A stretch of DNA of 64,000 nucleotides. It comes from Roseibium aggregatum IAM 12614 (GTDB lineage: Bacteria; Pseudomonadota; Alphaproteobacteria; Rhizobiales; Stappiaceae). The translations under genes were made by a program, and so were the position numbers. The DNA lies in contig NZ_AAUW01000001.1 in NCBI RefSeq assembly GCF_000168975.1, forward strand, positions 186,001-250,000. Reading direction: 5' to 3'. The notes beneath the pieces were generated by a model. The model ran no database searches, was not told where the DNA came from, and saw only the letters and a program-made list of their open reading frames with translations. This document shows, piece after piece, positions 14,345-41,557 of the stretch (position 1 is the first letter of the stretch; every line of letters starts with the position of its first letter).

Positions 14345-14366
14345 GGCCTGCCGGCTGAATGCCTGA

Positions 14367-14400
14367 AACGCGCGGTGGCAAGCCGCGCGTTTTTTGTTTT
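14367..14400 (+). terminator. Intrinsic terminator of the amino acid ABC operon
   Basis: AACGCGCGG (14367-14375) pairs with CCGCGCGTT (14383-14391) around a seven-base loop, followed by TTTTTTGTTTT. This is a textbook rho-independent terminator. Confidence 0.92.
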
Positions 14401-14453
14401 CGCGAGGGAAAATGCGAGGTTACAGCCATCTGAAAATCTAGTATCCCCCTGCC

Positions 14454-15998: not shown

Positions 15999-16033
15999 CC
16001 GTACTCTTTCCTGACCTGAGGCGCGAACCGATC

Positions 16034-16510: not shown

Positions 16511-16526
16511 GCCGTCATTGAACCGC

Positions 16527-16913: not shown

Positions 16914-16944
16914 GGTTTCGGGCTGACCTGGAGAACGGACGCAG

Positions 16945-17457: not shown

Positions 17458-17532
17458 AATCTGTGACCGGCAATTGCGACGGAGGAAAGGCCAAATCGAC
17501 TGATTTGGCGATTTCAGGCTCTGTTCAGCCGA

Positions 17533-24905: not shown

Positions 24906-25753
24906 CGCAGCACCGGATCGAAATGGTCCTTCAGGCCTTCGCCGAGCTGGGAAAAGCTCAGCACCGTCAGGAAGAGTGCGAATAGAGGAAACACCAGGAC
25001 CCACCAGGCCTGATAGATCGAGGTGCGGCCTTCGGCGATCATGCCGCCCCAGGTCGGCTGGTCGGTGGAAATCGACAGGTTGACGAAGGACAGGATCGCT
25101 TCGACGATCACCGCAATGCCCATTTCCAGCGTCAGCAGGGCAACGATGGTCGGCAGCACGTTCGGCAGGATCTCGGTGAGGGCGGTGCCGAAACGGGTGC
25201 GGCCGGCAACTTGCGCCGAGGCGACATAGTCCATCGCGCCCTGTCCCATCGCCTCCGCCCGCACCACGCGGGCAAAACGCGTCCAGTCGATGACGACAAT
25301 GGCGATGATGACCGACATCAGCCCGGTGCCGAGAACCGCAATCAGCAGGATCGCGAAGAGGACCGGCGGGAAGGCCATCCAGATATCGATGAAGCGTGAG
25401 ATCACCAGATCCACCCAGCCCCGATAGTAGCCTGCGATGAGGCCGAGGGACGCCCCAATGAGGCAGGTGAGCGTTCCGGCAACCAGCGCCACGATCAGAG
25501 CAAGCCTTGCGCCGTAGAGCATGCGGCTGAGCACGTCGCGGCCGAGGCTGTCGGTCCCCAGGAGATAGGCCGGATCGGCACCTTGTTCGAAGAAGGGCGG
25601 CAGGCGTCCGGCGAACAGGTCCTGCGCCAGCGGGTCATGCGGGCTGATCAGGGGGGCGAAGATGGCTGCCAGCACCAGGAAGGTGAGCCAGCCACCGCTG
25701 AGCCAGAGCCTGATGCCAGGCAGGCGGCGGATATTTCCACGGGCGTCACGCAT
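24902..25753 (-). CDS. Peptide-type ABC transporter permease (DppC type)
   Basis: This 283-residue permease has an N-terminal helix, the HPLGTDSLGRD-like segment (here LLGTDSLGRDVLSRMLYGARLAL), five further helices and the EAA loop VASAQVAGRTRFGTALTEILPNVLPTI. It overlaps the preceding permease by eight bases and the following ATPase by four. It pairs with the DppB-type subunit to make the channel. Confidence 0.92.
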   Translation of the reverse strand: MRDARGNIRRLPGIRLWLSGGWLTFLVLAAIFAPLISPHDPLAQDLFAGRLPPFFEQGADPAYLLGTDSLGRDVLSRMLYGARLALIVALVAGTLTCLIGASLGLIAGYYRGWVDLVISRFIDIWMAFPPVLFAILLIAVLGTGLMSVIIAIVVIDWTRFARVVRAEAMGQGAMDYVASAQVAGRTRFGTALTEILPNVLPTIVALLTLEMGIAVIVEAILSFVNLSISTDQPTWGGMIAEGRTSIYQAWWVLVFPLFALFLTVLSFSQLGEGLKDHFDPVLR

Positions 25754-26756
25754 GGCGCAGCCTCGGGTTCAGTGCGGCATAAGCCATGTCCACCACCAGA
25801 TTGACCATCGTGAAGAGCAGGGCAAATATCAGGACGATGCCTTGGATCAGCGGCAGATCGCGGTTGATCACAGCGTCGATCGCCATGTTGCCGAGACCTT
25901 CATAGGAAAACAGACGCTCGATGATAACCGTGCCGCCGATGAGGAAGGTGAACTGCACGCCGATCAGCGTCAGCGTCGGTAGGATCGCGTTCGGCAAGGC
26001 ATCGCGCAGGATGATGGAGCTTTCCGCATAGCCCTTTGTCCGGGCAAGGGTGATGTAATCGTCGTGCATGCATTCCTTCAGGGATTGCTTGAGGAGCTGC
26101 AAAATGATGGCTGCCAGCGGGATCGCCAGCGCAAGCGCCGGCATCAGCATGTGGCCCATGAGATCGAGCACCACATCGAAGCGGAAGCGGGCGAGCGCTT
26201 CGAACAGATAGAAGTTGGTGCTGAACTCGAACCCGAGCGACGGCGAGATCCGGCCGGAAATATGAAACAGCGGCCACAGAACCCCGAATAGCAGGATCAG
26301 CGCCAGCCCCCACAGGAAATCCGGCAGGGAGAGCGCGATGCCGCCGGCAACGTCGATCCCGCCTTCCACCTTGGAGCCGCGGTAGAGCGTTGCAGTGAGC
26401 GCAGCCGCACCGCCGATGACAACGGCGATCAGCAGCGCCATCACCGAAAGTTCCAGCGTGGCGGGCAGGCGGCCGATCACCAGGTCGTAGACCGGCTGGC
26501 GCAGGGTGATGGAGGTGCCGAAATCGCCCTGGACCACATTCGAGATCCAGATCACGAATTGTTCGAAAATGCCCTTGTCGAGCCCGTAGAGCGCTTTCAG
26601 CCGGTCTATGTCGGCCTCGCTCGCCCCCGGCGGCAGCATCATGGCGATGGGGTTGCCCGGAACGACACGAATGACCACGAAAACGATGATCGCGGCACCG
26701 AACAGGGTGATAAGCGTTGTGATGAGGCGCGTCAGCAGCGCGCGCACGATTTGCAT
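25746..26756 (-). CDS. Peptide-type ABC transporter permease (DppB type)
   Basis: This 336-residue permease begins with a helix (LITTLITLFGAAIIVFVVIRVVPGNP) followed by the usual periplasmic loop with LYGLDKGIFEQF and GDFGTSI. The EAA loop YITLARTKGYAESSIILRDALPNAILP comes near residue 235, and further helices end near VDMAYAALNPRLR. A terminator-like hairpin separates it from the binding-protein gene upstream, so it should be made in smaller amounts than that protein. Confidence 0.92.
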   Translation of the reverse strand: MQIVRALLTRLITTLITLFGAAIIVFVVIRVVPGNPIAMMLPPGASEADIDRLKALYGLDKGIFEQFVIWISNVVQGDFGTSITLRQPVYDLVIGRLPATLELSVMALLIAVVIGGAAALTATLYRGSKVEGGIDVAGGIALSLPDFLWGLALILLFGVLWPLFHISGRISPSLGFEFSTNFYLFEALARFRFDVVLDLMGHMLMPALALAIPLAAIILQLLKQSLKECMHDDYITLARTKGYAESSIILRDALPNAILPTLTLIGVQFTFLIGGTVIIERLFSYEGLGNMAIDAVINRDLPLIQGIVLIFALLFTMVNLVVDMAYAALNPRLRHA

Positions 26757-26857: not shown

Positions 26858-28384
26858 TTAGGAGCGCGTCATCAAGGCAGGCAGCAGCGCGCCGGAAGCA
26901 TGCGGCGTGACCTTGACCTTGTCGCTGTGCAGGATCGGCTGAACGTACTGCAGCAGCGGAATGACCAGGGCATTGTCCGCTATGTAGCGGTCAACTTCCT
27001 TCCAGCCTTCAATGCGCTTGTCCTCGTCGGCCTCACCCCACAGCGGCAGGATCTTCTGCATCAGCTCTTCGCCATCCCAGACGGAATGGGGCGAGGGGCC
27101 GAACATGGCAAAGCCTGTCGAAGTGGTCGGGTCGCCGATGGCATTGCCCCAGTTGTAGAAGGCTGCCGGGGCAAGCGTATCGGCCGCGCGCAGTTCGTAG
27201 TGCTTGGCGATTTCGTAGACTTCGATTTCCGCCTCGATGCCGATCCTGCGCCACAGGCCGACGATGGCCTGGATAATTTCATAATCCTTTGGCTTGAAGC
27301 CGCGGGTGGTCTGGATCTTGAACTTGACCGGATTGTCCGGGCCATAGCCGGAAGCCGCCAGCAGTTCCTTTGCCTTGTCGGGGTCGTAGGGAACGGCGAT
27401 AGAGGCGTCATAGGCGCTGTAGTCGGGCGTCTGCAGCGTGTCGATGGGCACGCCGTAGCCGGACAGGAGACGCTCGATGATGGTCTTCTTGTCGATGGAA
27501 TAGGCCATGGCCTTGCGCACGTTCTCGTCCAGCATCGGATCGACATCGTTGATGAAGATCATGCCGATATCGGAGATCGGTGCGGAGGTGCCGACAATGC
27601 CGTCGTTTTCCTTCAGGCGGTCGAATTCCTCGTACGGCATTTCCAGGGTGACATGGGCGTTGCCGGACATCACTTCGAATGTACGGCTGGAGGCGTCGGT
27701 GACGAACTTGATCGTGACCGTCTTGAACTCCGGTGCGCCGCCCCAGTAGTTTTCGTTGGCTTTCAACCGGACGAAGGCGTTGCGCTCGAACTTGTCGACC
27801 ATGTAGGGCCCGGTGCCGATCGGCTTGGCCTCGAAGCCGTCCGCGCCGACTTCCTCATAGTATTTCTTGGGCATGACGTAGCCGGTCAGGAAGCTCATCC
27901 ATTTGAAGATGGTCGGCTCGTATTCCTTGACGTCGGCGGTGATCTTGTTGCCGTCGATCTGGAAATTGCCGATCTTGCCCCAGATGAACTGGATCGGGTT
28001 GCCGGTGTCCGGATTGCCGGCGCGCTCCAGCGACCAGACAATGTCTTCCGGGGTCAGCGGATCGCCATTGTGCCAGGTGACGCCCTCGCGCACATCCATC
28101 CAGATTTTCGACTTGTCGTCGTTCCAGCCCCAGGCGGTGATGATGCCCGGCGCAAAGCTGAGATCGGTGTTCTGATGAATGAACATGTCGAACACGGACT
28201 GGTAGATGCCCTGGATGGTCGGGTTGACCGCAGAAGGACCGACAGTCGGGTCCCAGCTCGGCAGGTTGACGTTGTAGGCGATCACCAGTTCTTCGATATC
28301 GCTGGCAAAGGCAGGTGTTCCGACGGCTGTCAGCAGTCCGCTGGCAGCCGCACTTTTAAGCAGTGTGCGTCTTGAAACTTTCAT
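26858..28384 (-). CDS. Peptide-type ABC substrate-binding protein (SBP family 5), Tat-type leader
   Basis: This 508-residue protein opens with SRRTLLKSAAASGLL, a twin-arginine export signal ending near PAFA. The family 5 fold follows: YNVNLPSWDP, a W-x-DVREGVTWHNGDPLTPEDIVWSLERA block, and the usual PIGTGPYMVDKFERNAFVRLKANENYWGG. These proteins bind peptides, nickel, or small amides and opines. A Tat signal may mean it folds in the cytoplasm first. It follows the flavoprotein gene by 52 bases and is probably in its operon, which suggests it imports the substrate of that enzyme. Confidence 0.9.
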   Translation of the reverse strand: MKVSRRTLLKSAAASGLLTAVGTPAFASDIEELVIAYNVNLPSWDPTVGPSAVNPTIQGIYQSVFDMFIHQNTDLSFAPGIITAWGWNDDKSKIWMDVREGVTWHNGDPLTPEDIVWSLERAGNPDTGNPIQFIWGKIGNFQIDGNKITADVKEYEPTIFKWMSFLTGYVMPKKYYEEVGADGFEAKPIGTGPYMVDKFERNAFVRLKANENYWGGAPEFKTVTIKFVTDASSRTFEVMSGNAHVTLEMPYEEFDRLKENDGIVGTSAPISDIGMIFINDVDPMLDENVRKAMAYSIDKKTIIERLLSGYGVPIDTLQTPDYSAYDASIAVPYDPDKAKELLAASGYGPDNPVKFKIQTTRGFKPKDYEIIQAIVGLWRRIGIEAEIEVYEIAKHYELRAADTLAPAAFYNWGNAIGDPTTSTGFAMFGPSPHSVWDGEELMQKILPLWGEADEDKRIEGWKEVDRYIADNALVIPLLQYVQPILHSDKVKVTPHASGALLPALMTRS

Positions 28385-28436: not shown

Positions 28437-30005
28437 CTATCCGGCAAGTTTTTGTGCGAGCAGATATCCGGGCCCCGCGCCGGTGCCTGCACCCGGCCAG
28501 ACGGCGGCACCGGTGTGGTAAAGGTTTCCCACCGGTGTCGTGCCGTCGGCAAAGCCGCGTACGGGCCTGAACATGAAATGCTGGGTCAGGTGATGGCTCC
28601 CGCAGACCTGGTCTCCTCCGACCAGGTTGGGATTGACCGCCTCCAGCAGGGCGGGCGATACGATATGGCGGCCGAGGATCTTGGCTCTCGTGCCGGGGGC
28701 ATAACGTTCCAGGATGTCGAGGGCGCGTTCGGCAAAAGGCTCCGCCGCTTCGCTCCAGTCCGTGGCGGTAATCTTGCCGGCGGCATCCCCCTTGATCGTT
28801 CCAGGTGCCATGCGCACCTGAAGCCAGAGCACGTGCTTGCCCTCAGGTGCCCGGCTCGGATCGACGACGGTTGGCTGGCCGCAGACGATCACAGGTTCAT
28901 CCGGCAGCAGGCCGGCGCGCGCCTGGGCATAGGTGCGCGCCATCTGGTCTAGATCCGGAGCCATGTGCACGTAAGCGAATTTTTTCAGCTCTTCGCCTGC
29001 GCTCCAGTCGGGCAGGGCGTCCATCGCCAGATGGATCATCATCGTGCCGGGTGCATGGACGAATGTCTTCAGTCCGAGATCATAGCGCTTGTCGCCCGTC
29101 TCGCCCGCGAGTCTCAAAAGGGCTGACGGGGCAACGTTGGCAATAACAGCCTTGCGAGCCATGATCTGCCGCCCGTCGCTGAGTTCGATGCCGCGTGCCT
29201 GTCCGTTTTCGACAATCACGCGCGTTACTTCGGCATTGCAGGTCACCGATCCGCCGCTCGCCTCGATCTGCGAGACCATGGCCTTGACGATCGTATCCGC
29301 GCCGCCCTGACCCAGCACCATGCCGAAGGCCTGGTTGGTCATGCCTTCCAGATAGGGAAACAGGGCGCCACCTGAAATGTCGGGTGCAAAATCAAGATGC
29401 ATGCCCCAGGCGGCAAGAAGCGCGCGCACCTTGGGTGAAGTGAATGTCGCGTTCAGCCAGTCGCGTGGGGCGGAGAGCAGGAAACGGCCAAGGTCCAGCA
29501 CGCCGTCCGCACCGCTCTTCCGCCACTGCTTGAATAATATATATGCAAATGCACGTTTTTTTGCCGGGCTGCCCAGAAGGGAGAACAAGGTCTCCGCACG
29601 GCCGGGGAATTCCGACGTCAGCGTGCGCCAGACATGAGCGTCTTCCGGGCTGACTTTTTCGATTCGCGAAGCGGTCGTTTCCAGGTCGTTGCTGACCCCA
29701 AGCCAGGTGCCGTCCGGAAAAACGGAAGAGAAACAATCGGATGCAGGAGCGAATGCAAGACCGTGACCGCCCAGTTCTTCGGCATATTTCTTGAAGAAAG
29801 CCGAACCCGCGAACAGGGAAAGGTTCATGGCCGCCCAGTCATGGCGGTAGCCCGGAAGCGTGTATTCACCGGTTTTGACCGCGCCGCCAGGCTCTGCCGC
29901 ACGTTCGAAGACACCTATCTTCCAGCCCTGAGCGGCAAGATGAACAGCGCAGGCGAGGCTGTTATGCCCGCTGCCGATAATGACGCCGTCCAACATCTCT
30001 GTCAC
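28437..30005 (-). CDS. PYROXD2/phytoene-dehydrogenase-like FAD oxidoreductase (copy 1)
   Basis: This 522-residue flavoprotein opens with the Rossmann GSGHNSLACAVHLAAQG motif and the ribose-binding acidic FERAAEPGGA. It has the COG1233 pattern with HDWAAMNLSLFAGSAFF, ISGGALFPYLEGMTNQAFGMVLGQGGADTI and the closing NLYHTGAAVWPGAGTGAGPGYLLA FAD motif. Carotenoid desaturases share the fold, but no carotenoid genes are near, so it probably oxidises a small molecule. The GTG start at 30005 has GGAGGGG seven bases before it. It leads the importer operon and is divergent from the cyclase gene. Confidence 0.85.
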   Translation of the reverse strand: MTEMLDGVIIGSGHNSLACAVHLAAQGWKIGVFERAAEPGGAVKTGEYTLPGYRHDWAAMNLSLFAGSAFFKKYAEELGGHGLAFAPASDCFSSVFPDGTWLGVSNDLETTASRIEKVSPEDAHVWRTLTSEFPGRAETLFSLLGSPAKKRAFAYILFKQWRKSGADGVLDLGRFLLSAPRDWLNATFTSPKVRALLAAWGMHLDFAPDISGGALFPYLEGMTNQAFGMVLGQGGADTIVKAMVSQIEASGGSVTCNAEVTRVIVENGQARGIELSDGRQIMARKAVIANVAPSALLRLAGETGDKRYDLGLKTFVHAPGTMMIHLAMDALPDWSAGEELKKFAYVHMAPDLDQMARTYAQARAGLLPDEPVIVCGQPTVVDPSRAPEGKHVLWLQVRMAPGTIKGDAAGKITATDWSEAAEPFAERALDILERYAPGTRAKILGRHIVSPALLEAVNPNLVGGDQVCGSHHLTQHFMFRPVRGFADGTTPVGNLYHTGAAVWPGAGTGAGPGYLLAQKLAG

Positions 30006-30116
30006 GATTAATCCCCTCCATCGTTCGAAGAAGATAATTGCAAATACAAATAAATCTGTCTAGCATTGAATTGTGATAACGAGCCGACAGGCCACAGAGG
30101 TACAGAGGGAACGAAT
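30006..30116. promoter_or_regulatory. Divergent promoter region of flavoprotein and cyclase operons
   Basis: The 111-base gap must carry promoters for both directions. It has an AT-rich core (AATTGCAAATACAAATAAAT near 30037) unlike the GC-rich surroundings. No perfect palindrome is visible. The MarR-family protein encoded at 32473 is the likely regulator, but its operator is not identified. Confidence 0.5.
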
Positions 30117-30908
30117 ATGTCTGCACAGAGCGCGCTCAGCGGGCTTGGAGCAAAACTCCTGTCCGGAGAAGTGGAAGTGGTGGATTGCACGGGCGTTCTG
30201 GGTCCGAATACGCCGATCCTGCAGCTTCCGCCTGATTTTGCAAAGAATACGCCGAAGGTCGAGATCCACAAGATCAGCGAGTATGATTCCGACGGTCCGT
30301 TCTTCGCCTGGAACTGGATGGTTCTGGGGGAACATTCCGGCACGCACTTCGATGCGCCGCACCACTGGATCACCGGGAAAGACTACAGCGACGGCTTTAC
30401 CGACACCCTGGACGTCCAGCGTCTGATTGCGCCGGTCAATGTGATCGACTGCTCCAAGGAGAGCGCGGCAGATCCTGATTTTCTGCTGACTGCGGATTTG
30501 ATCAAGGCCTGGGAAGCCGAGCACGGTGAGATCGGTGCCGGCGAGTGGGTGGTAATGCGCACCGACTGGGACAAGCGCGCCGGCGACGAGGCTGCGTTCC
30601 TCAATGCCGACGAAACCGGTCCGCACAGCCCTGGACCGACCCCGGATGCCATTGAATATCTTCTGTCCAAGAAGATCGTGGGTTGGGGCAGCCAGTGCAT
30701 CGGAACCGATGCTGGCCAGGCAGGTGGCATGGAGCCGCCGTTCCCGGCGCACAACCTCCTGCACCGCGACAATTGCTTCGGTCTGGCCTCGCTTGCCAAT
30801 CTCGACAAGCTGCCGGCCAAGGGCGCGATCCTGATTGCCGCGCCGCTGAAGATCGAGCGCGGCACGGGCAGTCCGATCCGTGCGCTGGCTCTGGTCCCCA
30901 AAGCCTGA
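30117..30908 (+). CDS. Metal-dependent cyclase/hydrolase (kynurenine formamidase-like, PF04199)
   Basis: This 263-residue protein has the metal-binding motif HSGTHFDAPHHWITG (H-x-G-T-H-x-D-x-P-x-H) at about residue 80, and a later GGMEPPFPAHNLLHRDNCFG segment typical of the cyclase family. The family includes kynurenine formamidase, isatin hydrolase and related enzymes that open amide or lactam bonds with Mn or Zn. GAGGGA precedes the ATG. It is the first gene of a rightward operon, and hydrolysis of a cyclic or N-acyl aromatic is inferred. Confidence 0.87.
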   Translation: MSAQSALSGLGAKLLSGEVEVVDCTGVLGPNTPILQLPPDFAKNTPKVEIHKISEYDSDGPFFAWNWMVLGEHSGTHFDAPHHWITGKDYSDGFTDTLDVQRLIAPVNVIDCSKESAADPDFLLTADLIKAWEAEHGEIGAGEWVVMRTDWDKRAGDEAAFLNADETGPHSPGPTPDAIEYLLSKKIVGWGSQCIGTDAGQAGGMEPPFPAHNLLHRDNCFGLASLANLDKLPAKGAILIAAPLKIERGTGSPIRALALVPKA

Positions 30909-30919
30909 GGCGACCCGGG

Positions 30920-32476
30920 ATGGCCGCTCCGCATGTCATCGTAGGGTCCGGCATCAACGCTCTTGTCGCGGCAGCCATGCTGTCGCGGCGGGGAGAGCCG
31001 GTCCTGCTTCTGGAACGCTCTGACGTCCTTGGCGGCTGCATGCGGACCGAGGAAATCACGCTGCCGGGGTTCCGGCACGATGTCATGGCGGCCACCTTTG
31101 TCCTCTTCCTGACATCGCCTGCCTATGCGGAACTGGCGGAAGATCTGGGCCGTCATGGCCTCGACTTCTGCCACACCCCGCATCCGACCGCCGTTTTACG
31201 GCCGGGAGGGGAGGCGCTGAAGCTGACCACGGACCGTGAGGCCAATGTTGCCACCTTCGAAGCCCTCGCGGCAGGAGACGGCAAGCAGCATGCGGCCGAC
31301 GTCGGCGGTATCGAAGCCGATGCGGAGTTTCTGTTCGCCTTGCTGGGAGGCCCGCTCTGGTCCGGCAAGATGGCGCGCCTGATGCTCGGCCAGGCCTGGA
31401 AACGCGGTCTTGGCGGCTTGAAAACCTGGTTAGGCACCTGTCTCCAGCCGGCACGTGGCTGGCTGGAAGGAGGCTATCAGAGTGACACCCTGCAGGCGCT
31501 CTGGGCGCCCTGGGTTCTGCATACCGGCCTGACGCCGGAAAGCACCTACTCGGGCCAGATGGGCCGGGTGATCGCATTTGCGCTGGAAGCTGCCGGCGCG
31601 CCGGTGGCCAAGGGGGGCTCAGGCTCCGTGCCGGAAGCGTTCAGACGCCTGATTGAAGCCAAGGGTGGCAAGATCCGGACGGGTGTCGATGTCGAACGTG
31701 TTCTGGTGAAGGACGGCAAGGCGGTCGGTGTCGAAACGGCGGACGGAGAAACCATCAAGGCGCGGTCGGTGATTGCGTCCGTCACGCCGACACAGCTTTA
31801 CCAGCGGCTTCTGAAACAGGAAACTCTTCCCGAGCAAACGCAGAAGTATCGCTACGGCCGTGGCAATTTCCAGCTTCACTATGCTCTCGACGGGGATCCG
31901 GACTGGATTTCCGAAGGTCTGGAAGATGTGGCGCTGATCCACCTGACGGACGGCATCGACAGTGTTTCCAAATCCGCCAACGAGGCCGAGCGGGGGCTGT
32001 TGCCGGAAGTGCCGACGATCTGCGTTGGCCAGCCCCATCGGCTTGACCCGTCGCGCGCACCGGAAGGCAAAGGCATCCTGTGGCTTCAGATCCCCGATGC
32101 CCCGCGCACGATAAAGGGCGACGCTGCCGGCAAGATCGAGACCGGGACCGAATGGACCGAGGCAATTCGTGAAGCCTTTGCCGACCGGCTGGAAGACATC
32201 CTCAGGCGGCATATCCGCAATTTCGATCAGATCAAGCTTGCCCGGCGGGCCTACTCCCCGGCGGATCTGAATAACCTCAACATCAATCTGGTCGGCGGCG
32301 ACCCTTATGGCGGTGCCTGCAGCATCGATCAGTTTTTTGTCTGGCGCCCCTTTGCTCATTCCGTTAATAGCGCCACCCCGATCCGGAACCTTCACATGAT
32401 CGGCGCTTCGACCCATCCAGGGCCGGGGCTCGGTGGCGGGTCCGGTTACAATCTGGCGAAATGGATGGGTGCATGA
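30920..32476 (+). CDS. PYROXD2/phytoene-dehydrogenase-like FAD oxidoreductase (copy 2)
   Basis: This 518-residue flavoprotein has GSGINALVAAAMLSRRG at the N-terminus, the acidic LLERSDVLGGCMRT segment, the HDVMAATFVLFLTSPAYAELAEDLG block that parallels copy 1, and the closing NLHMIGASTHPGPGLGGGSGYNLA FAD motif. It is a diverged paralogue of the enzyme at 28437. The gene starts 11 bases after the cyclase stop and its stop overlaps the MarR start (ATGA), so it is firmly in this operon. Confidence 0.85.
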   Translation: MAAPHVIVGSGINALVAAAMLSRRGEPVLLLERSDVLGGCMRTEEITLPGFRHDVMAATFVLFLTSPAYAELAEDLGRHGLDFCHTPHPTAVLRPGGEALKLTTDREANVATFEALAAGDGKQHAADVGGIEADAEFLFALLGGPLWSGKMARLMLGQAWKRGLGGLKTWLGTCLQPARGWLEGGYQSDTLQALWAPWVLHTGLTPESTYSGQMGRVIAFALEAAGAPVAKGGSGSVPEAFRRLIEAKGGKIRTGVDVERVLVKDGKAVGVETADGETIKARSVIASVTPTQLYQRLLKQETLPEQTQKYRYGRGNFQLHYALDGDPDWISEGLEDVALIHLTDGIDSVSKSANEAERGLLPEVPTICVGQPHRLDPSRAPEGKGILWLQIPDAPRTIKGDAAGKIETGTEWTEAIREAFADRLEDILRRHIRNFDQIKLARRAYSPADLNNLNINLVGGDPYGGACSIDQFFVWRPFAHSVNSATPIRNLHMIGASTHPGPGLGGGSGYNLAKWMGA

Positions 32477-32967
32477 GCGACGAGGATCAGACGGACGTAA
32501 CTTTGGAAGAGGCCCGCTTGCCGCGGCTCGGTGAAATCGGACTGGAAAATTTTCCGCCCTATCTGATGAACCGCATCATGGGCCGCTACAACGCCGCCCT
32601 GCGCGAGGAAATGGCCAATCTGGGCCTGACGACGCCGAAGATGCGAACCCTGGCCGTGTTGTCCGTGATCGACGGTCTGCTGATCCGGGAGCTTGCCATC
32701 TATGCGGTCGTCGAAGTCTCGACGTTGAGCCGGGCGCTGGACGCGCTTGAGCGGGACGGTCTGGTGCGCCGGGTCTCCGACAAGGAGGACAGCCGTGCCG
32801 TCCGTATTCACCTGACGTCCAAGGGGCGTGACACCCACGAGCAGCTTTGGCCGCATCTGGCCGGCGCTTACCGGCAGATGTTCAAAGGCATCAGCGATGC
32901 GGATCAGAGGGCCTTCGTCGCCACGCTGCAGGCAATTTTGAAGAACGTGCGCAAGCACCCGATATAA
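32473..32967 (+). CDS. MarR-family transcriptional regulator
   Basis: This 164-residue protein has the MarR winged helix-turn-helix: LTTPKMRTLAVLSVIDGLLIRELAIYAVVEVSTLSRALDALERDGLV with the wing RRVSDKEDSRAVRIHLTSKG. MarR repressors of catabolic operons usually release DNA on binding the substrate, often an aromatic acid. It is co-translated with the upstream flavoprotein and precedes the ferredoxin oxidoreductase genes, so it probably controls this regulon. Confidence 0.87.
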   Translation: MSDEDQTDVTLEEARLPRLGEIGLENFPPYLMNRIMGRYNAALREEMANLGLTTPKMRTLAVLSVIDGLLIRELAIYAVVEVSTLSRALDALERDGLVRRVSDKEDSRAVRIHLTSKGRDTHEQLWPHLAGAYRQMFKGISDADQRAFVATLQAILKNVRKHPI

Positions 32968-32990
32968 GTTGATCGCGTAAGGAGGGGCCG

Positions 32991-35141
32991 ATGGCCGAAA
33001 GGTCGTTCAAGGCTGAGGTAGAGCATCTTCGCAAGGGAACCGGAGACACCTTCACGGGTGAGGGCATTCTGGCCATCACGAAGGCGCTTCTGGAAAACGG
33101 TGTCGGCTATGTCGGCGGCTATCAGGGCGCGCCGATCTCCCATCTGATGGATGTTCTCGCGGACGCCGAGGATCTTCTGGGCGAACTCGGAATTCGTTTC
33201 GAGGCAAATGCCTCCGAAGCTGCCGCAGCCGCCATGCTGGCCGCCTCCGTGCATTATCCGATACGCGGCGCCGTCACCTTCAAGGGCTCGGTCGGCGTCA
33301 ACGTGGCATCGGATGCCCTGGCCAATCTGGCGTCTTCCGGCGTCAACGGCGGCGCGCTTGTCATCGTCGGCGAGGATTACGGCGAAGGCAGCTCCATCAT
33401 GCAGGAGCGTTCCTACGCCTTTGCCATGAAATCGCAGTTCTGGCTGCTGGATCCAAGGCCCAACCTGACGTCGATCGTCAAATCCGTCGGCGATGGTTTC
33501 GCCCTGTCGGAGGCCAGCAATTCGCCGGTCATGCTGATGGTCCGCATCCGCTCCTGCCACGTTACCGGCCGGTTCGAGACCCGGGACAACGTGCCGCCGC
33601 CGCTTTCCGTGCGCGATGCGCTGTCCAGTCCGATGCGCGACTTCAAGCGGGTGGTGCTGCCGCCCATGTCCTATGCCCACGAGCATGACAAGATCGACAA
33701 CCGCTGGCCGGCAGCCGAAAAGTTCATTCTGGAAAACCGTCTCAACGAACGTTTCGGACCGGAAGAGGGCAAGGTCGGTATCGTCTGCCTCGGCGGCATC
33801 TACAACAGCGTCATCCGCGCGCTGCAACGGCTCGGGCTTGCCGATATCAGCGGCAACACGTCGATCCCGCTTCATGTGCTCAACGTCACCTATCCGCTGG
33901 TGAAATCCGAGCTTCTGGAGTTCTGCGCCGGCAAGGAAGCCGTTCTGATGGTCGAGGAAGGCCAGCCGGAATTCATCGAGCAGCAACTCGGGGCCATGCT
34001 CTACAAGGAAGGCCGAACGACAAAGCTGGAAGGCAAGGGCATCTTCCCGCGTGCGGGTGAATACACCGGCCAGATCATGCTCGACGGCCTGGATGCCTTT
34101 GTCCGCCAATATGCGCCGGAGCTTCTTCCGGGCAAGGTGCTGGCGCCGAACACGCCCAAGCCGGAGCTGCCGGATCTCACCAAAACGGTGCCGATCCGCC
34201 CGCCGGGTTTCTGCACCGGCTGTCCGGAACGTCCGATCTTCGCCTCTTTGAAGATGGTAGAGCAGGAAGTCGGCCAGCATCAGATCACCGGTGACATCGG
34301 CTGCCACCTCTTTGCCTGCCTGCCACCCTTCGAAATCGGCGGTTCGACCATGGGCTATGGCCTTGGACCGGCCTCGAACGCCGCCTTCGATGGCGGCGGC
34401 GAGAGGCGGGCGATCTCCATCATTGGCGATGGCGGCTTCTGGCACAACGGCCTCAGCACCTCCATCGGCAACATGGTGTTCAACAAGTCCGACAGTGTCG
34501 CGATTATCGTCGATAACTATTATTCGGCGGCAACCGGCGGGCAGGACATTCCCTCCAGCCGGGCAAAGAACAAGACCAAGTCGACCAACAATCCGATTAC
34601 CAAGGCGCTGCAAGGCGCCGGGGTCAAGTGGATCCGGCAGATCGACCGGACCTACGATGTCACCCGGATGCGCGAGACCATCCGCGAGGCGCTGACCACT
34701 GAGTATGATGGTCCGAAGGTGATCGTTGCGTCCTCCGAGTGCATGCTCAATCGCCAGCGCCGGGAAAAGCCCCTGCGCAACAAGGCGATTGCAGGCGGTG
34801 AACGGGTGGAGGTGCCGCGGTTCGGCGTCGATCAGGACGTGTGTACCGGCGATCACGCCTGTATCCGCCTGTCCGGATGTCCGTCGCTCTCCCTGAAGAA
34901 GCTGGACGATCCGCTGCGCGACGATCCGGTGGCCCACATCGACCAGTCGTGTGTCGGTTGCGGCAACTGCGGCGAAGTCGCCGATGCGGCCATCCTGTGT
35001 CCATCCTTCTTTGAGGCGAAAGTGGTTCATAACCCGACCGGCTTCGAAGCCTGGTATGCCGGGCTTCGGACGAAGATCATTTCCTGGCTGCAGACACGGC
35101 GGGCCGGTGCCCGTCTGACCTTTACCGGGGAGGGCGCGTAA
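32991..35141 (+). CDS. iorA: Indolepyruvate:ferredoxin oxidoreductase, alpha subunit-like
   Basis: This 716-residue protein has the N-terminal pyrimidine domain (YVGGYQGAPISHLMDVL, NASEAAAAAMLAASV), a transketolase-C-like middle and the TPP-binding domain with IGDGGFWHNGLSTSIGNMVFN. The C-terminal ferredoxin-like part (about residues 615-670) has cysteines in CTGDHACIRLSGC and CVGCGNCGEVADAAILC. The family decarboxylates aryl-2-oxoacids such as indolepyruvate to aryl-acetyl-CoA, reducing ferredoxin. The stop overlaps the next ATG (TAATG). The first iron-sulfur motif has unusual spacing. Confidence 0.9.
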   Translation: MAERSFKAEVEHLRKGTGDTFTGEGILAITKALLENGVGYVGGYQGAPISHLMDVLADAEDLLGELGIRFEANASEAAAAAMLAASVHYPIRGAVTFKGSVGVNVASDALANLASSGVNGGALVIVGEDYGEGSSIMQERSYAFAMKSQFWLLDPRPNLTSIVKSVGDGFALSEASNSPVMLMVRIRSCHVTGRFETRDNVPPPLSVRDALSSPMRDFKRVVLPPMSYAHEHDKIDNRWPAAEKFILENRLNERFGPEEGKVGIVCLGGIYNSVIRALQRLGLADISGNTSIPLHVLNVTYPLVKSELLEFCAGKEAVLMVEEGQPEFIEQQLGAMLYKEGRTTKLEGKGIFPRAGEYTGQIMLDGLDAFVRQYAPELLPGKVLAPNTPKPELPDLTKTVPIRPPGFCTGCPERPIFASLKMVEQEVGQHQITGDIGCHLFACLPPFEIGGSTMGYGLGPASNAAFDGGGERRAISIIGDGGFWHNGLSTSIGNMVFNKSDSVAIIVDNYYSAATGGQDIPSSRAKNKTKSTNNPITKALQGAGVKWIRQIDRTYDVTRMRETIREALTTEYDGPKVIVASSECMLNRQRREKPLRNKAIAGGERVEVPRFGVDQDVCTGDHACIRLSGCPSLSLKKLDDPLRDDPVAHIDQSCVGCGNCGEVADAAILCPSFFEAKVVHNPTGFEAWYAGLRTKIISWLQTRRAGARLTFTGEGA

Positions 35142-36691
35142 TGTCGCTTTCATTGCCATTGGATGCCAGGCCGGCCGATCCGGCGCTCGAAGGGATCATC
35201 AAGCTTGCCATTCTCGCCGTTGGCGGGCAGGGCGGCGGCGTTCTGACCAACTGGATCGAGAGCCTGGCGAGATCGCAGGGCTATCATTGCCAGGCCACGA
35301 GCGTGGCGGGTGTCGCCCAGAGGACCGGTGCGACCATTTATTATATGGAAATGGCGCCGGGGGACGTAGACGCTCCTGTCTTTTCGCTCGCCCCGTCCGC
35401 AGGCGATGTCGATATCATCATTGCAGCGGAAATGATGGAAGCGGGCCGGGCGATCATTCGCGGCTTCGTGACCCCGGACCGCACCACGCTTATCGCTTCG
35501 AGCCACCGCATGCTCGCGGTTTCCGAAAAGACCGTGCCGGGTGACGGCATGGCGTCTTCGGAAGAGGTGAAGGCGGCAGCTGAACTGGCCGCGCAGAAGC
35601 TTGTGCTGGCCGATATGGATACCGCTGCTCTCAAAGTCGGCTCCGTGATTTCCGCTTCCCTGTTCGGGGCGTTGGCTGGCTCCGGTGCCTTGCCCTTCGA
35701 ACGGGAGGCCTTTGAAGAGGCCATTCGCGCGGGTGGCAAGGGCGTGGAAGCCAGTCTGAGGGCTTTTGCTGCCGGTTACGATCTGGCGAAAAACGGTGAG
35801 GAGCCCAAGGCCGAGGCCGTAAAGCCCGCTCACCAGGAAATCGTCAGGCCTGCAGGCCCGGACATGGCGCAAAAGGCCTGGGCTTCGCTGGAAGCCAAGG
35901 TCGCGGCCTTGCCGGAACCCGTTCGCGAAATGGCCCGTGCCGGATTGCGCAAGGTGGTCGATTTTCAGGACACGGATTACGGAGCGGAATATCTCAGCAG
36001 GCTGGAAGGTCTCGTCAGCCGGGATAGCGCGGAGAAGGATTACGAACTCTCCCGTGAGGCCGCGAAATACATTGCCAATGCCATGGCCTATGACGATGTC
36101 ATCCGGGTCGCCGATCTGAAAACACGTCCGCAGCGATTCAACCGCATCGAGACGGAAATGAAGGTGAAGGACGGCAAGCTGCTGCATTTGACCGACTATC
36201 TTCATCCGCGCGCGGAAGAAATCGTCGGCCTTCTGCCGGAGAAGATGGGTCGCAAGATGGAAAGCGATCCGGCGTGGATGAAACGGATCGACCGCTGGTT
36301 CAACCGTGGCCGCCGTATCCGCACCGACAGCCTGCGCGGCTTTGCAATGCTTTACTTCCTGGGCGGTTTGCGCGGCTGGCGCCGCCGGACCCTGCGCCAT
36401 CGGATGGAACAGGAGCATCTGGAGAGCTGGCTCAAGATGGTGTCGGGCTACCTGCCGGACCGCTATGCCATGGCCGTTGAGGTTCTGAAATGCCGGCGTC
36501 TCATCAAGGGCTACTCCGACACCCATGCAAGGGGCCTGTCGAAGTTCGACAAGGTGCTGGCTGGCGCAAGGCTGGTGGAAAGCAGGGACGACGGCCCGGA
36601 ATGGGTCGCCCGTCTGCGCGAGGCCGCCCTCAAGGATGAGAAGGGCACAGATCTCGACGGGGCGCTGAAGACTGTTGAGAGCTTTGTGTGA
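35141..36691 (+). CDS. iorB: Indolepyruvate:ferredoxin oxidoreductase, beta subunit-like (long form)
   Basis: This 516-residue protein has an N-terminal 2-oxoacid:acceptor oxidoreductase gamma-type domain (AVGGQGGGVLTNWIESLARSQGYHCQATSVAGVAQRTGATIYYMEM, about residues 20-210) and a long C-terminal helical domain of the DUF6537 type found in aerobic relatives. Archaeal IorB is only about 200 residues, so this is the long bacterial form. It overlaps iorA by one base and the two must assemble together. The electron acceptor gene (ferredoxin) is not in the cluster. Confidence 0.88.
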   Translation: MSLSLPLDARPADPALEGIIKLAILAVGGQGGGVLTNWIESLARSQGYHCQATSVAGVAQRTGATIYYMEMAPGDVDAPVFSLAPSAGDVDIIIAAEMMEAGRAIIRGFVTPDRTTLIASSHRMLAVSEKTVPGDGMASSEEVKAAAELAAQKLVLADMDTAALKVGSVISASLFGALAGSGALPFEREAFEEAIRAGGKGVEASLRAFAAGYDLAKNGEEPKAEAVKPAHQEIVRPAGPDMAQKAWASLEAKVAALPEPVREMARAGLRKVVDFQDTDYGAEYLSRLEGLVSRDSAEKDYELSREAAKYIANAMAYDDVIRVADLKTRPQRFNRIETEMKVKDGKLLHLTDYLHPRAEEIVGLLPEKMGRKMESDPAWMKRIDRWFNRGRRIRTDSLRGFAMLYFLGGLRGWRRRTLRHRMEQEHLESWLKMVSGYLPDRYAMAVEVLKCRRLIKGYSDTHARGLSKFDKVLAGARLVESRDDGPEWVARLREAALKDEKGTDLDGALKTVESFV

Positions 36692-37057: not shown

Positions 37058-38191
37058 TTACCGGGGAAGCATCGTCCCCAGTTCCACCACTACTTCGCGT
37101 GTGGCGTCTTCCGTCGTCTGGATGCCAGGGGAGAGACGGAGCGTTGCGTCGCGAGTATCTGCGGAAAAACCAGCGTCACGCAACTGGTTCAGAACCAGTT
37201 TTGCCTGATCGGCTGAGTCAAGGCCGAACATCAGGCTACCGCCACGGTCTTCTTCCGCCCGGGGTGTGAGAAGTTTCAGGCCGAGCGCATCCGCGCCATC
37301 TATGAGAATGCTGCAAAGATGCCTGTTGCTGCGCAGGATCGCATCCCTGTCGGCGCTCGCATGCCACTTGAGGGCAGGCACGGAGGCGGCTGCAGGCATG
37401 ATCGACGGCGTGCCGTTGTCGAACCGGCGAATGTCCGGCGCATATTCGAAAGCGTCGATATCCCAGTTGAACGGGTTGTCCTGACTGAACCAGCCACACA
37501 GCTCCGGCCTGCAATCGCGGATCAGGTCCGGATGAACGTAGAGGATACCGGCGCCAGGCGTGCCGCACATCCATTTGAGGCTGGTCGAGACGACAAAATC
37601 CACATTCGGGGCATCGACAGAAAAAGGCAGCAGGCCAGCACCCTGGGTGATGTCCACGCCGATGATGCTGCCCATCGAACGGCCATGGGCAACGAGGCTT
37701 TCGAGATTCGAGCGCCGGGACGTGGTCGAGCTGATCCAGGTAATCAGGCAGAGCGCGACATCGCGGTCCCATTCGGCGATCATGTCTTCGTCGGAAACGA
37801 AATTCGCTCCTTGACGGGCCCGGACGGTCACCAGCTCGAACCCGAGCCTTTCCTGCAGACGGGTCAGCAGAAAATGGTTCGAAGGGAAACAGTCCGCAGC
37901 AACGAGAACCTTGCGGCCGCGCAGCAAGCCGTCCGGCAGGGAGCGCATCACCATGTCAACGCCCTGGGTGACGTTCTCGCAAGTCGTGGCCGTTCCGGGG
38001 GGCGCACCGATGATCGCGCGCCAGTAATCGATGAACTCTCCGCGTTTGCCGAGCAGATAAGCCCACTGCTGATCGTTGGGGGCGCTCCAGACGGAAGCCA
38101 GCTCCGCCATTGCGGCGCTTAATCCGGCTTCCTTGCCGGGATACTGGCCGATGGAATGATAGAGGAAGTAGCCGTCTTCCCTGGTCGTCAT
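37058..38191 (-). CDS. Kynureninase-like class V PLP enzyme
   Basis: This 377-residue enzyme has the aminotransferase class V fold. Asp180 (GVDITQGAG) should hold the pyridine nitrogen and Lys206 (STSLKWMCGTPGAG) the PLP. SLKWMCGTPGAG is close to the kynureninase lysine motif. Kynureninases cleave the side chain of kynurenine to give anthranilate and alanine; this protein is shorter than classical kynureninase (about 410-465 residues), so the substrate may differ. I chose the ATG at 38191 with GGGGGAC upstream. It is divergent from a GntR gene. Confidence 0.75.
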   Translation of the reverse strand: MTTREDGYFLYHSIGQYPGKEAGLSAAMAELASVWSAPNDQQWAYLLGKRGEFIDYWRAIIGAPPGTATTCENVTQGVDMVMRSLPDGLLRGRKVLVAADCFPSNHFLLTRLQERLGFELVTVRARQGANFVSDEDMIAEWDRDVALCLITWISSTTSRRSNLESLVAHGRSMGSIIGVDITQGAGLLPFSVDAPNVDFVVSTSLKWMCGTPGAGILYVHPDLIRDCRPELCGWFSQDNPFNWDIDAFEYAPDIRRFDNGTPSIMPAAASVPALKWHASADRDAILRSNRHLCSILIDGADALGLKLLTPRAEEDRGGSLMFGLDSADQAKLVLNQLRDAGFSADTRDATLRLSPGIQTTEDATREVVVELGTMLPR

Positions 38192-38286
38192 GCGGTCCCC
38201 CGAAAACTCGTGTCCGTCGGTCAATCGGGGCGCTGAAACAGATCGGTTCCTGCATCAAACACGCTATTGACCGTTACGGGAATATT

Positions 38287-38391
38287 CGTATACAGTTTTT
38301 GAGATAGTTCAAGCTTAAAGGACTTTTCAAGTGTCTGGAAATGGGTTGAATAAACGAATGATCCATTTTGGCTTGAATTGTTCTGTATACG
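38287..38391. promoter_or_regulatory. Pair of inverted GTATAC operator candidates in a divergent promoter
   Basis: CGTATACAG at 38287-38295 and its exact inverse CTGTATACG at 38383-38391 flank the centre of the gap between the kynureninase-like and GntR genes. TNGTATACNA-type sites are typical of FadR/FCD-class GntR regulators. One site lies near each gene's start region. Confidence 0.6.
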
Positions 38392-38434
38392 ATTTTGTCG
38401 TGGGAACGGCGTTCGTGACAAGGGGAGCTTGCCG

Positions 38435-39142
38435 GTGACAGCAGGAAAGTCATCCGCCAACTCATCAGTCGCGCAAAGCACCAGCGGTCAGATCCACGAC
38501 CTGCTCATGGGGCGCATCCAGCGCGGCGAGCTTGGACAGGATGTCCGACTTGTCGATACGGCCGTTGCAGCCGAGTTCGGTGTTTCCCGCATGCCGGCAC
38601 GCGACGCCTTGATGCGCCTTGCCCATGAAGGTTATCTGGAGCCGACTACACGCGGCTTCATGCTGCCACGGCTCGATCATCAGGAAATTCTGGAAATCTT
38701 CGACCTTCGCCGCCTGCTGGAGCCGCGCGCTGCGGCCATGGCTGCGCTCAACCTGTCGGACGAAGAGCTGAAGGCACTGGACGACATCCAGGCTGAAGCG
38801 CACGCTGCCATGGCGGCGGGAGATATCGAACGGTTACATCGGGCCTGCGAGATATTCCGCAACAGCTGGATCGCCGCCGTTCCCAATGTTTCGCTGCGCA
38901 AGGCGCTGCAACGCTACATGACCCAGGTTCAGGCCGTGCGCCTGATGACCTTTGCCGACCAGGCAAATCACCCGTTGATCGTTGCGGGCAACACCCAGCT
39001 TTACCAGGCCTTCTGCCGCCGGGATGCGGTGGCCGCCGGCGACAGGATCCTGCGGTTCGTCTTCGAAGGGGAGGCGGCCTACCTCCAGGCGCACGAAGAG
39101 GCCCACAATCAGACCGCAACATCATCCGCGCAGGCAGGTTGA
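38435..39142 (+). CDS. GntR-family (FCD type) transcriptional regulator
   Basis: This 235-residue regulator has the GntR winged helix (IHDLLMGRIQRGELGQDVRLVDTAVAAEFGVSRMPARDALMRLAHEGYLEPTTRGFMLPRL) and a C-terminal all-helical FCD ligand domain with IFDLRRLLEPRAAAMAA. FCD domains bind small acids, often through a metal. I chose the GTG at 38435 because GGGGAG lies seven bases upstream. It is divergent from the kynureninase-like gene and precedes the bicupin gene by 32 bases. Confidence 0.87.
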   Translation: MTAGKSSANSSVAQSTSGQIHDLLMGRIQRGELGQDVRLVDTAVAAEFGVSRMPARDALMRLAHEGYLEPTTRGFMLPRLDHQEILEIFDLRRLLEPRAAAMAALNLSDEELKALDDIQAEAHAAMAAGDIERLHRACEIFRNSWIAAVPNVSLRKALQRYMTQVQAVRLMTFADQANHPLIVAGNTQLYQAFCRRDAVAAGDRILRFVFEGEAAYLQAHEEAHNQTATSSAQAG

Positions 39143-39174
39143 CGCGCAGAAGCAACAGGAGCGATGGACAGGAT

Positions 39175-40263
39175 ATGAGCGAAACCCGCGCCGAAGTCAG
39201 ACTACCGACCCAGGACCTTGCCAAGGATCTGCCGTTCTTCACCAAGACGCTGAACATGCGGCTGGATATGATCTATCCGGCCGATAATCCGGAAATCGCC
39301 GTGTTCTCGGGGCACGGCCTGCGCGTGCGGGTGGAAAAGGGCGCAAGCGAAGCGCCAGGCACGCTGCGCATCCTCACCGATAATCCGGATGAATTCGCGG
39401 ATGGCGAGCGTCTTCTGGTGTCTCCGGGCGGTACGCGCGTCGAGATCGATGAACTCAATCCGCCGCTGGTTCTGCCACAGACCGAGCACGCCTTCGTGGT
39501 GCGCCGCCTGGCCGACCAGGCCCCCTGGGTGATCGGACGGGCCGGCATGTCCTATCGTGATCTGGTGCCCACGCGGCTTGGCGGCGCGATGATCGCCTCG
39601 CATATCCGGGTGCCGGACGGGCCGGTGCCGGACATGGTCCATTTCCACAAGGTCGGTTTTCAGCTCATCTTCTGCGTGCACGGCTGGGTTGACGTTCTGT
39701 ACGAAGACCAGGGCGGCATGCGCCGCCTGAGGGCAGGTGACTGCTTCATCCAGCCGCCGGAAATCCGCCACCGGGTGATGCATGCAGCCGAAGGCATCGA
39801 AGTGGTCGAGATCGGCGTTCCCGCCGAGCACATTACCGAGATCGACCACGAGATGACCCTGCCGACACCCCATGAGCGGCCGGACCGCGAGTGGCAGGGC
39901 CAGAAGTTCGTGCACAGCCTGGCAAAAGACGGCACCTTCCGGCCGTTCCGCATCCCGGGTTTTGAAGCGCGCGACACCACCATCTGTGACAACACCAGAG
40001 GTGTGGCATCTGTTATGGTGGCACGTCCGGCCGGGGAGGCCTCTCCCTGGACACGCCATGACTGCGATATTCTATTCAACTTTGTGCTGGCAGGCGAAAT
40101 GACCCTGGAGGGCGAAGGCAAAGATCCTTACCGCCTGTCTGCCGGAGACGCCTTCGTAATCCCGCCGCATATGGCGACGCGATACGCGGATGCAACTGCC
40201 GACCTGGAGCTGCTGGAAGTCAGCTTGCCGGGTCGGTTCGAAACGGAAGTTCTGCGCGATTAA
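39175..40263 (+). CDS. VOC-like domain fused to two cupin domains
   Basis: This 362-residue protein begins with a short VOC-like half-domain (VRLPTQDLAKDLPFFTKTLNMRLDMIYP, about residues 6-55). Two cupin barrels follow. The first has FHKVGFQLIFCVHGWVDVLYED and AGDCFIQPPEIRHRV; the second has ILFNFVLAGEMTLEG and AGDAFVIPPHMATRY. Such fusions may be dioxygenases or isomerases, but I cannot name the reaction. It lies between a GntR gene and a LIV-type importer and probably belongs to the same pathway. Confidence 0.75.
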   Translation: MSETRAEVRLPTQDLAKDLPFFTKTLNMRLDMIYPADNPEIAVFSGHGLRVRVEKGASEAPGTLRILTDNPDEFADGERLLVSPGGTRVEIDELNPPLVLPQTEHAFVVRRLADQAPWVIGRAGMSYRDLVPTRLGGAMIASHIRVPDGPVPDMVHFHKVGFQLIFCVHGWVDVLYEDQGGMRRLRAGDCFIQPPEIRHRVMHAAEGIEVVEIGVPAEHITEIDHEMTLPTPHERPDREWQGQKFVHSLAKDGTFRPFRIPGFEARDTTICDNTRGVASVMVARPAGEASPWTRHDCDILFNFVLAGEMTLEGEGKDPYRLSAGDAFVIPPHMATRYADATADLELLEVSLPGRFETEVLRD

Positions 40264-40337
40264 AAAGACAAAGCCTGTCGTGGAGGAAAGAACAGGCTGT
40301 GCAGGATTTCAAGGTCAAGCAATGAGGGGATGACAGT

Positions 40338-41540: not shown

Positions 41541-41557
41541 GCCGATCAGGCAACAGT

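Follow-up and report, generated by a model that had tools for sequence, protein, structure and literature searches.

The question raised by this locus is which compound is degraded by a divergent gene cluster that combines a peptide-type importer, two flavoproteins, a cyclase of the PF04199 family, a MarR regulator and the two subunits of a long-form IorAB. The cluster lies in Roseibium aggregatum IAM 12614, in a stretch of 64,000 nucleotides (hereafter the window; NZ_AAUW01000001.1, positions 186,001 to 250,000), which is part of contig 48 (C48) of a 6.56-Mb genome in 48 contigs. A first-pass annotation of this DNA left the substrate as unknown. We found that the PF04199 protein is isatin hydrolase B of Labrenzia aggregata (PDB 4J0N/4M8D), with 263 of 263 residues identical. 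Because exactly this protein has been crystallised as isatin hydrolase B, the substrate of the cyclase is known, and it is isatin. With moderate confidence, we regard the cluster as an isatin-catabolism regulon, in which isatin would be opened to isatinate, IorAB would convert isatinate to anthraniloyl-coenzyme A (CoA), and the 2-aminobenzoyl-CoA monooxygenase/reductase (ACMR) pathway would be the outlet.

Isatin hydrolase and the divergent cluster

The metal motif of the PF04199 protein, HSGTHFDAPHH, matches the HxG[T/A]HxDxPxH required in isatin hydrolases (PMC6117287; this and the other PMC articles are cited from excerpts, and those of PMC6117287 mention neither 'operon' nor 'gene cluster'). 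The identity to a characterised enzyme bears out the ring opening and the indolic compound suggested in the first-pass annotation, isatin being a breakdown product of indole. The start of the gene is better set at 30117, where the solved protein begins. A second PF04199 homologue in the genome (52% identity) is isatin hydrolase A (PDB 5NNA/5NNB; 255 of 255 residues identical). It is located on contig 29 in a locus (L165, G000:C29:104001-124000) of the type of the auxin-degrading iad loci, near genes for a reductase, a Rieske oxygenase (81% identical to that of locus L072), a ligase, a thiolase, a short-chain dehydrogenase/reductase (SDR) and a TRAP transporter; IorAB was not found in the 20 kb read around it. 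An annotated operon on a Roseibium aggregatum plasmid has the same layout.

The features of the window cluster are given below, with counts from the best 80 of 293 candidate loci recruited with the window IorA (the named loci), in which a gene was scored as present at 50% identity or more. Some of the locus contigs are cut, so that true absences may be fewer than scored.

23227-24030, minus strand: Dpp/Opp-type ABC ATPase 2 (open reading frame; at least 50% identity in 32/80 named loci)
24027-24905, minus strand: Dpp/Opp-type ABC ATPase 1 (PF00005; 33/80)
24902-25753, minus strand: DppC-like permease (PF00528/PF12911; 33/80)
25746-26756, minus strand: DppB-like permease (PF00528/PF19300; 32/80)
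26858-28384, minus strand: solute-binding protein SBP_bac_5 with a leader like those of twin-arginine translocation (Tat) (PF00496, E 4.9e-71; 34/80)
28437-30005, minus strand: FlavoA, a CrtI/CrtO-like flavin adenine dinucleotide (FAD) oxidoreductase of COG1233 type (PF13450/PF01593; 39/80)
30033-30068, strand not applicable: conserved regulatory element with the palindrome TTGCA-NN-TGCA (core 30038-30053), predicted MarR operator
30117-30908, plus strand: isatin hydrolase B (PF04199; isatin to isatinate; 263/263 identity to PDB 4J0N/4M8D)
30920-32476, plus strand: FlavoB, a CrtI/CrtO-like FAD oxidoreductase (CrtI-type fold model; 40/80)
32461-32967, plus strand: MarR regulator (closest solved relative 3CJN)
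32991-35141, plus strand: IorA, thiamine pyrophosphate (TPP) subunit, predicted isatinate:ferredoxin oxidoreductase alpha subunit (PF02775; clade linked to isatin hydrolase and iad genes)
35141-36691, plus strand: IorB, long form with POR gamma and DUF6537, predicted beta subunit (PF01558, PF20169)
37058-38224, minus strand: class-V pyridoxal phosphate (PLP) enzyme, kynureninase-like, loosely linked (PF00266; 63.4 bits with the kynureninase model, cut-off 246.4)

The domain scan agreed with the genes, domains and strands assigned in the first-pass annotation, that is, an importer led by a flavoprotein on the minus strand and the series cyclase, flavoprotein, MarR and IorAB on the plus strand. 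The bounds of 28437-36691 given there hold for these genes but not at the left limit, as the importer carries the unit to 23227. The tight packing and the divergent promoter region described there were also seen. The cyclase and FlavoB genes are 11 bp apart, FlavoB overlaps MarR, IorA overlaps IorB, and the divergent gap (30006-30116, 111 bp) carries the conserved element and promoter-like hexamers for FlavoA. FlavoA and FlavoB are 36% identical to each other. The N-terminus of the solute-binding protein reads MKVSRRTLLKSAAASG, a Tat-like leader. The NCBIfam models of solute-binding proteins gave no name for the imported solute, the highest score being 145.6 bits where the cut-off is 600.

All 11 genes are present in 31 of the 80 named loci, with the same order and strands in each of the 31; the cluster is thus conserved far beyond chance, and the neighbourhood comparison supports both the conservation of these genes together and the proposal of one coherent catabolic regulon. 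The most stable core is isatin hydrolase-MarR-IorAB (isatin hydrolase in 66/80, MarR in 66/80 and IorB in 78/80). FlavoB was always accompanied by isatin hydrolase (40/40), and FlavoA by FlavoB (39/39). The two flavoproteins are not essential to the core, FlavoB being found in 40/80 loci against 66/80 for isatin hydrolase. For example, Sulfitobacter indolifex (L179) and Paracoccus (L180) have the core without flavoproteins; in S. indolifex, a FlavoA-FlavoB-importer module lies about 60 kb from the core on the same plasmid, and in S. dubius and S. delicatus module and core are likewise separated but retained within one genome. A FlavoB hidden elsewhere in the genome is not a general explanation of such loci, since it was found in only 3 of 20 genomes chosen for loci without flavoproteins (S. 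dubius, S. delicatus and Planktotalea arctica) and the other 17 were without it; in Planktotalea arctica (G306), FlavoB sits in a second full cluster (L084).

IorAB and the proposed step from isatinate to anthraniloyl-CoA

The subunits have the domains of long-form IOR enzymes, namely the TPP domain PF02775 in the alpha subunit and POR gamma (PF01558) with PF20169 in the beta subunit, and IorB scored 684.7 bits with NF006179 (cut-off 348). Cysteines 618, 624, 630, 654, 657, 660 and 670 near the C-terminus of IorA are candidate iron-sulfur (Fe-S) ligands, but Pfam reports no Fe-S domain in this protein. Because IorA scored only 277.3 bits with TIGR03336, the indolepyruvate equivalog, under the cut-off of 650.9, we did not file it as an indolepyruvate enzyme. 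A tree of 123 IorA rows was made by a quick method; two rows came from annotated plasmids, and the window IorA served as the query for all the others. Every row with a link to isatin hydrolase or to the iad Rieske gene (78 in total) falls in a single clade of 92 rows (SH-aLRT 100). The window row also belongs to this clade, although it was scored as unlinked because no more than 5 kb of its locus had been fetched. Among the 31 rows outside the clade, the flanks read showed no such link. The clade has 13 other unlinked rows, of which four (L049, L068, L077 and L106) are cut contigs. As for iadAB (COG4231/COG1014), the window IorA falls within the clade of the iad-linked IorA rows, in a tree without the IadA of Variovorax or Bradyrhizobium.

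Enzymes of the IOR family oxidatively decarboxylate aryl-2-oxoacids to acyl-CoA, and isatinate, (2-aminophenyl)glyoxylate, is an aryl-2-oxoacid. Isatinate is therefore suited to IorAB, as the first-pass annotation had expected of some 2-oxoacid in the pathway. The aryl-acetyl-CoA proposed there as the product was rejected; since isatinate is an arylglyoxylate, the expected product is anthraniloyl-CoA. In the pathway that we propose, the Dpp-type importer would take in an oxidised indolic compound, FlavoA and FlavoB would dehydrogenate it, and isatin hydrolase would open isatin to isatinate, a hydrolysis already demonstrated for this enzyme. IorAB, as a predicted TPP/Fe-S 2-oxoacid:ferredoxin oxidoreductase, would then convert isatinate, CoA and oxidised ferredoxin to anthraniloyl-CoA and CO2, a reaction suggested by the genomic context. 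Such a route would spare the ATP that an anthranilate-CoA ligase would use, and anthraniloyl-CoA (2-aminobenzoyl-CoA) could enter the ACMR pathway, whose genes are on the same contig at a distance of 40 kb.

The same step may be the missing job of iadAB in the auxin-degrading iad loci. We tentatively propose, at a little under even chances, that the IorAB clade is an undescribed isatinate:ferredoxin 2-oxidoreductase, which would be the common exit of modular indole-ring pathways into ACMR and would explain iadAB. The step from isatinate to anthraniloyl-CoA fits three published observations. In Bradyrhizobium japonicum, indole-3-acetic acid (IAA) induces iorA 30.7-fold and iorB 7.6-fold (PMC3788728). 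Conway et al. named iadAB exclusive iad markers (PMC9613470). A Variovorax construct with the nine genes iadC-K2, which lacks iadAB, strongly accumulates C8H7NO3, shown not to be N-formylanthranilate, as well as C7H7NO (PMC12633357). The former is the formula of isatinic acid and the latter that of 2-aminobenzaldehyde; in our own reading, the build-up reflects a block at IadAB.

Front ends, proposed ACMR outlet and predicted operator

The front-end genes attached to this core differ by locus, being an indole/styrene monooxygenase, the iad Rieske oxygenase, or the two CrtI-like flavoproteins with the Dpp importer. The monooxygenase, together with an SDR, was found near the core in 5/80 named loci (L058, L070, L085, L097 and L104) and also in Alloyangia L117 and L161. 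The Rieske gene was found in 10/80 (L054, L055, L060, L061, L072, L089, L098, L101, L103 and L111) and is accompanied by the ligase and thiolase genes in all of these but L061. In Alloyangia pacifica (L117), a single run starts with an SDR, the indole/styrene monooxygenase, a flavin reductase, ACMR (of salicylyl-CoA 5-hydroxylase/oxidoreductase type) and others, goes on with isatin hydrolase-FlavoB-MarR-IorAB-FlavoA-importer, and then has a relative (69% identity) of the CoA ligase of the R. aggregatum ACMR cluster. Azospirillum thermophilum (L116) has the order SDR-monooxygenase-reductase-FlavoB-isatin hydrolase (51%), and IorAB was not found in the 25 kb read. Because FlavoB is placed between the monooxygenase/SDR pair and isatin hydrolase in L116 and L117, its most likely reaction, judged from gene order, is the dehydrogenation of dioxindole to isatin. 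FlavoA is predicted to oxidise the imported compound. These two assignments are the weakest enzymatic claim made here. The FlavoB model (pLDDT 83.8) is closest in fold to gamma-carotene desaturase (4rep; TM 0.78/0.82), and the fold search gave nothing narrower than the broad CrtI/amine-oxidase fold.

Other oxygenases occur near the core as well. A luciferase-like monooxygenase (PF00296) was found in 8/80 named loci, with the styrene-type enzyme in two (L070 and L097) and without it in six (L109, where the region is 14260-17550 on the minus strand, L086, L088, L090, L105 and L113); a flavin-containing monooxygenase (FMO)-like enzyme was present in three (L086, L090 and L109). The luciferase-like and FMO enzymes are possible alternative indole oxidisers.

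The ACMR cluster of R. aggregatum is at C48:262837-269920, beyond the window and 40 kb from IorB. Its ACMR protein scored 1320.5 bits with NF006101 (cut-off 1078), and the genes that follow encode an SDR, a MarR protein, an enoyl-CoA hydratase, an acyl-CoA dehydrogenase and a CoA ligase. Elsewhere, ACMR lies near the core in 6/80 named loci (L084, L086, L091, L102, L105 and L113), and also in Alloyangia L117 and in L131. In L131, one stretch holds the iad ligase, thiolase, SDR and Rieske genes, isatin hydrolase and IorAB, followed by a convergent ACMR cluster. In a class-level survey of 289 genomes, IorA was found in 42 (E at most 1e-60), ACMR in 57 (E at most 1e-100), isatin hydrolase in nine (E at most 1e-40) and FlavoB in three (E at most 1e-80). 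All nine genomes with isatin hydrolase have IorA (Fisher p 1.3e-8) and eight have ACMR (p 1.1e-5), and IorA and ACMR overlap in 33 genomes (p 5e-20), in tests uncorrected for kinship.

The nearest solved chains to the window MarR are 3CJN and then 7KYM of B. japonicum. The MarR directly upstream of IorAB in Ruegeria pomeroyi (L101) is identical in 85 of 88 residues to the 3CJN fragment. IadR is an IAA-binding MarR protein, in which residues such as Ser28 and Arg46 of MarR_73 contact the carboxylate. The palindrome of the divergent gap, which spans the spacer of the FlavoA promoter-like site, is a probable operator of the window MarR as judged from its sequence and distribution, and MarR may repress both operons from it. 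At three or fewer mismatches, the 16-mer of the gap was found in 46 of 66 other upstream regions, against at most two for 60 shuffled 16-mers. The consensus of the element, gATA.TTGCAAAtGCAtaTAAatcTGTCTAGCaT, was found in 57 of 68 upstream regions including that of the window, at a loose threshold chosen after inspection. Of the 60 loci that have MarR, 56 carry it, compared with one of the eight that lack MarR. As for the four MarR loci without it, L039 and L045 hold a variant of the core, L079 is cut, and the MarR of L117 has diverged (40%). Among the iad loci, the palindrome is upstream of the MarR-IorAB pair in L089, L098, L101, L103 and L111; L072 has MarR but no palindrome; in L054 the palindrome precedes IorA and no MarR was detected; and both are missing from L055, L060 and L061. 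Among the loci with only MarR-IorAB, it is present in L047 and absent from L082 and L099. In the 6.56-Mb genome of R. aggregatum, the site is unique at one mismatch or fewer, and a reversed-pattern control also gave one match. We rejected an operator shared with the iad locus of this genome, since L165 has two sites at two mismatches of TTGCAAATGCAA, which is the chance level, and none closer, the site being single genome-wide. The operator remains a prediction because related sequences share such elements by descent.

Past the cluster (38378-44884), the window contains a GntR regulator, a double-cupin protein and a Liv-type ABC transporter. Among the fetched loci, only L035-L038, L044 and L046, from Roseibium, Labrenzia and Stappia, were found to have close relatives of the GntR and cupin genes.

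Alternatives, known systems and significance

Several observations weigh against the pathway as we propose it. Among the papers listed in the literature searches, from which subscription journals were mostly missing, there was no assay of IorAB or IadAB on isatinate and no paper linking isatinate with 2-aminobenzoyl-CoA, anthraniloyl-CoA or an oxidoreductase. A search of the R. aggregatum genome with the Alloyangia indole/styrene monooxygenase gave no match at E of 0.001 or lower. ACMR lies outside the operon here and is common (57/289 genomes), and its co-occurrence with IorA is not specific, because it is also present outside the clade (25/32 genomes). Isatin hydrolase is linked to IorAB of the clade in only four of the nine class genomes (G000, G001, G154 and G202). 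In the other five (G065, G185, G187, G279 and G281), isatin hydrolase (45-50% identity) and IorA (52-53%) are on different contigs, and this IorA does not belong to the clade; in the loci read, isatin hydrolase adjoins an iad-like thiolase. Moreover, in nine loci of the clade (L047, L082, L099 and L125-L130), the 9-10 kb or so read upstream contains neither isatin hydrolase nor iad genes; on the downstream side, L126 and L128 are cut. At E of 1e-40 or lower, isatin hydrolase is also missing from the genomes of L125-L130, and TRAP transporter genes are located by IorAB in L125, L127, L128 and L099. These nine loci are the chief reason to think that the clade does not serve isatinate alone; because they lack isatin hydrolase and iad genes, several being by TRAP genes, the clade may use other aryl-2-oxoacids. 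L129 and L130 have another Dpp importer beside IorAB, and in these two and the four TRAP loci a ready-made aryl-2-oxoacid is perhaps imported. Separately, in two related genomes (L133 and L134; IorA 57%), which have no isatin hydrolase at E of 1e-40 or lower, IorAB outside the isatin clade is about 8 kb from an ACMR cluster.

The explanation that best survives besides the isatinate route draws on these same loci. In this explanation, IorAB uses another aryl-2-oxoacid of the same regulon (indolepyruvate, indoleglyoxylate, phenylglyoxylate or similar) and isatin hydrolase belongs to a parallel branch. In agreement with this, IorA relatives with 61-71% identity occur in genomes that lack isatin hydrolase, in several cases next to TRAP transporters; no IorA of the clade was found in five of the nine class genomes with isatin hydrolase; and the known substrates of the family are arylpyruvates. 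However, isatinate itself qualifies as an aryl-2-oxoacid, the score of IorA is far under the cut-off of the indolepyruvate equivalog, and isatin hydrolase and IorAB remain operon neighbours across many rearrangements. We consider this explanation unlikely.

More doubtful is the published iad-type route, in which isatinate would be decarboxylated independently of IorAB, giving 2-aminobenzaldehyde or anthranilate, the ACMR-cluster ligase would activate anthranilate, and IorAB would serve otherwise. In Variovorax, the product measured was anthranilate (PMC9613470), and the nine-gene construct without iadAB suffices to restore it (PMC12633357), which is a further point against our pathway. In addition, a benzoate-CoA-ligase-like gene closes the ACMR cluster of R. 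aggregatum; this ligase is also kept in L084 and L091, and its relative (69%) ends the cluster in Alloyangia. Because the ligase is retained, free anthranilate is still handled. However, the route leaves unexplained the joining of iorAB to the isatin hydrolase operon, the exclusive marker status in iad loci and the 30.7-fold induction by IAA (PMC3788728). Furthermore, the three Ring_hydroxyl_A proteins of the genome were far below two anthranilate dioxygenase cut-offs or under the listing threshold.

A kynurenine formamidase, or some other lactam or amide hydrolase of a tryptophan-kynurenine pathway, is what the PF04199 family, a weak arylformamidase match (32.2 bits against a cut-off of 223) and the adjoining PLP gene might suggest for the cyclase. 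Such an identity is very improbable and close to refuted, since the protein is fully identical to the crystallised isatin hydrolase B, and the PLP protein scores far under the kynureninase cut-off and has homologues (above 35% identity) in only 20/80 named loci. A kynureninase-like PLP gene is located directly before isatin hydrolase-IorAB in seven Silicimonas/Boseongicola loci (L067, L069, L074, L075, L087, L094 and L108), in which MarR, the flavoproteins and the operator were not found.

Returning to the isatin-catabolism regulon, the claim in the first-pass annotation that no known pathway combines these genes stands in part. Isatin hydrolase is already known, as is the combination of IorAB, MarR and PF04199 in iad loci; the flavoproteins and importer were found in none of the ten iad-linked loci. 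The iad loci of Variovorax, Bradyrhizobium and Achromobacter share IorAB (iadAB) and MarR regulators with the window, and that of R. aggregatum itself has isatin hydrolase A; they have a Rieske oxygenase, ligase and thiolase, in place of which the window cluster carries two CrtI-like flavoproteins and a Dpp importer. A Ring_hydroxyl_A search found three places in the genome, one in the iad-type locus on contig 29 and none on contig 48. Variovorax IadI is annotated as kynurenine formamidase (PMC12633357). Since isatin hydrolase A lies in the iad-type locus of R. aggregatum, the analogy suggests that IadI is an isatin hydrolase. The first enzymes of the iif/ind/dho-ipo indole clusters are akin to the styrene/indole monooxygenase and SDR of L117, L116, L058, L070, L085, L097, L104 and L161. 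The published indole route ends with a cofactor-free oxygenase that yields anthranilate (PMC12538310), which FlavoB, isatin hydrolase and IorAB would replace. The ACMR pathway is classically fed by anthranilate-CoA ligase, whereas feeding by IorAB without ATP is proposed here. As far as our searches show, within the same literature, the flavoprotein-Dpp variant, the modular front ends, the linkage to ACMR and the proposed reaction of IorAB/IadAB are new.

The genes iadAB are used as exclusive markers for one of two systems of aerobic auxin degradation, yet the texts examined, which were excerpts, assign them no reaction. If the proposal is true, the routes from indole, auxin and imported oxindole-type compounds would reach ACMR without forming free anthranilate or spending ATP on its activation, and FlavoA and FlavoB would represent a recruitment of CrtI-fold enzymes into the breakdown of indole compounds. 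The place of isatin in indole degradation is disputed (PMC6221969); the cluster suggests that in many marine Rhodobacterales and Stappiaceae the pathway genuinely branches at isatin.

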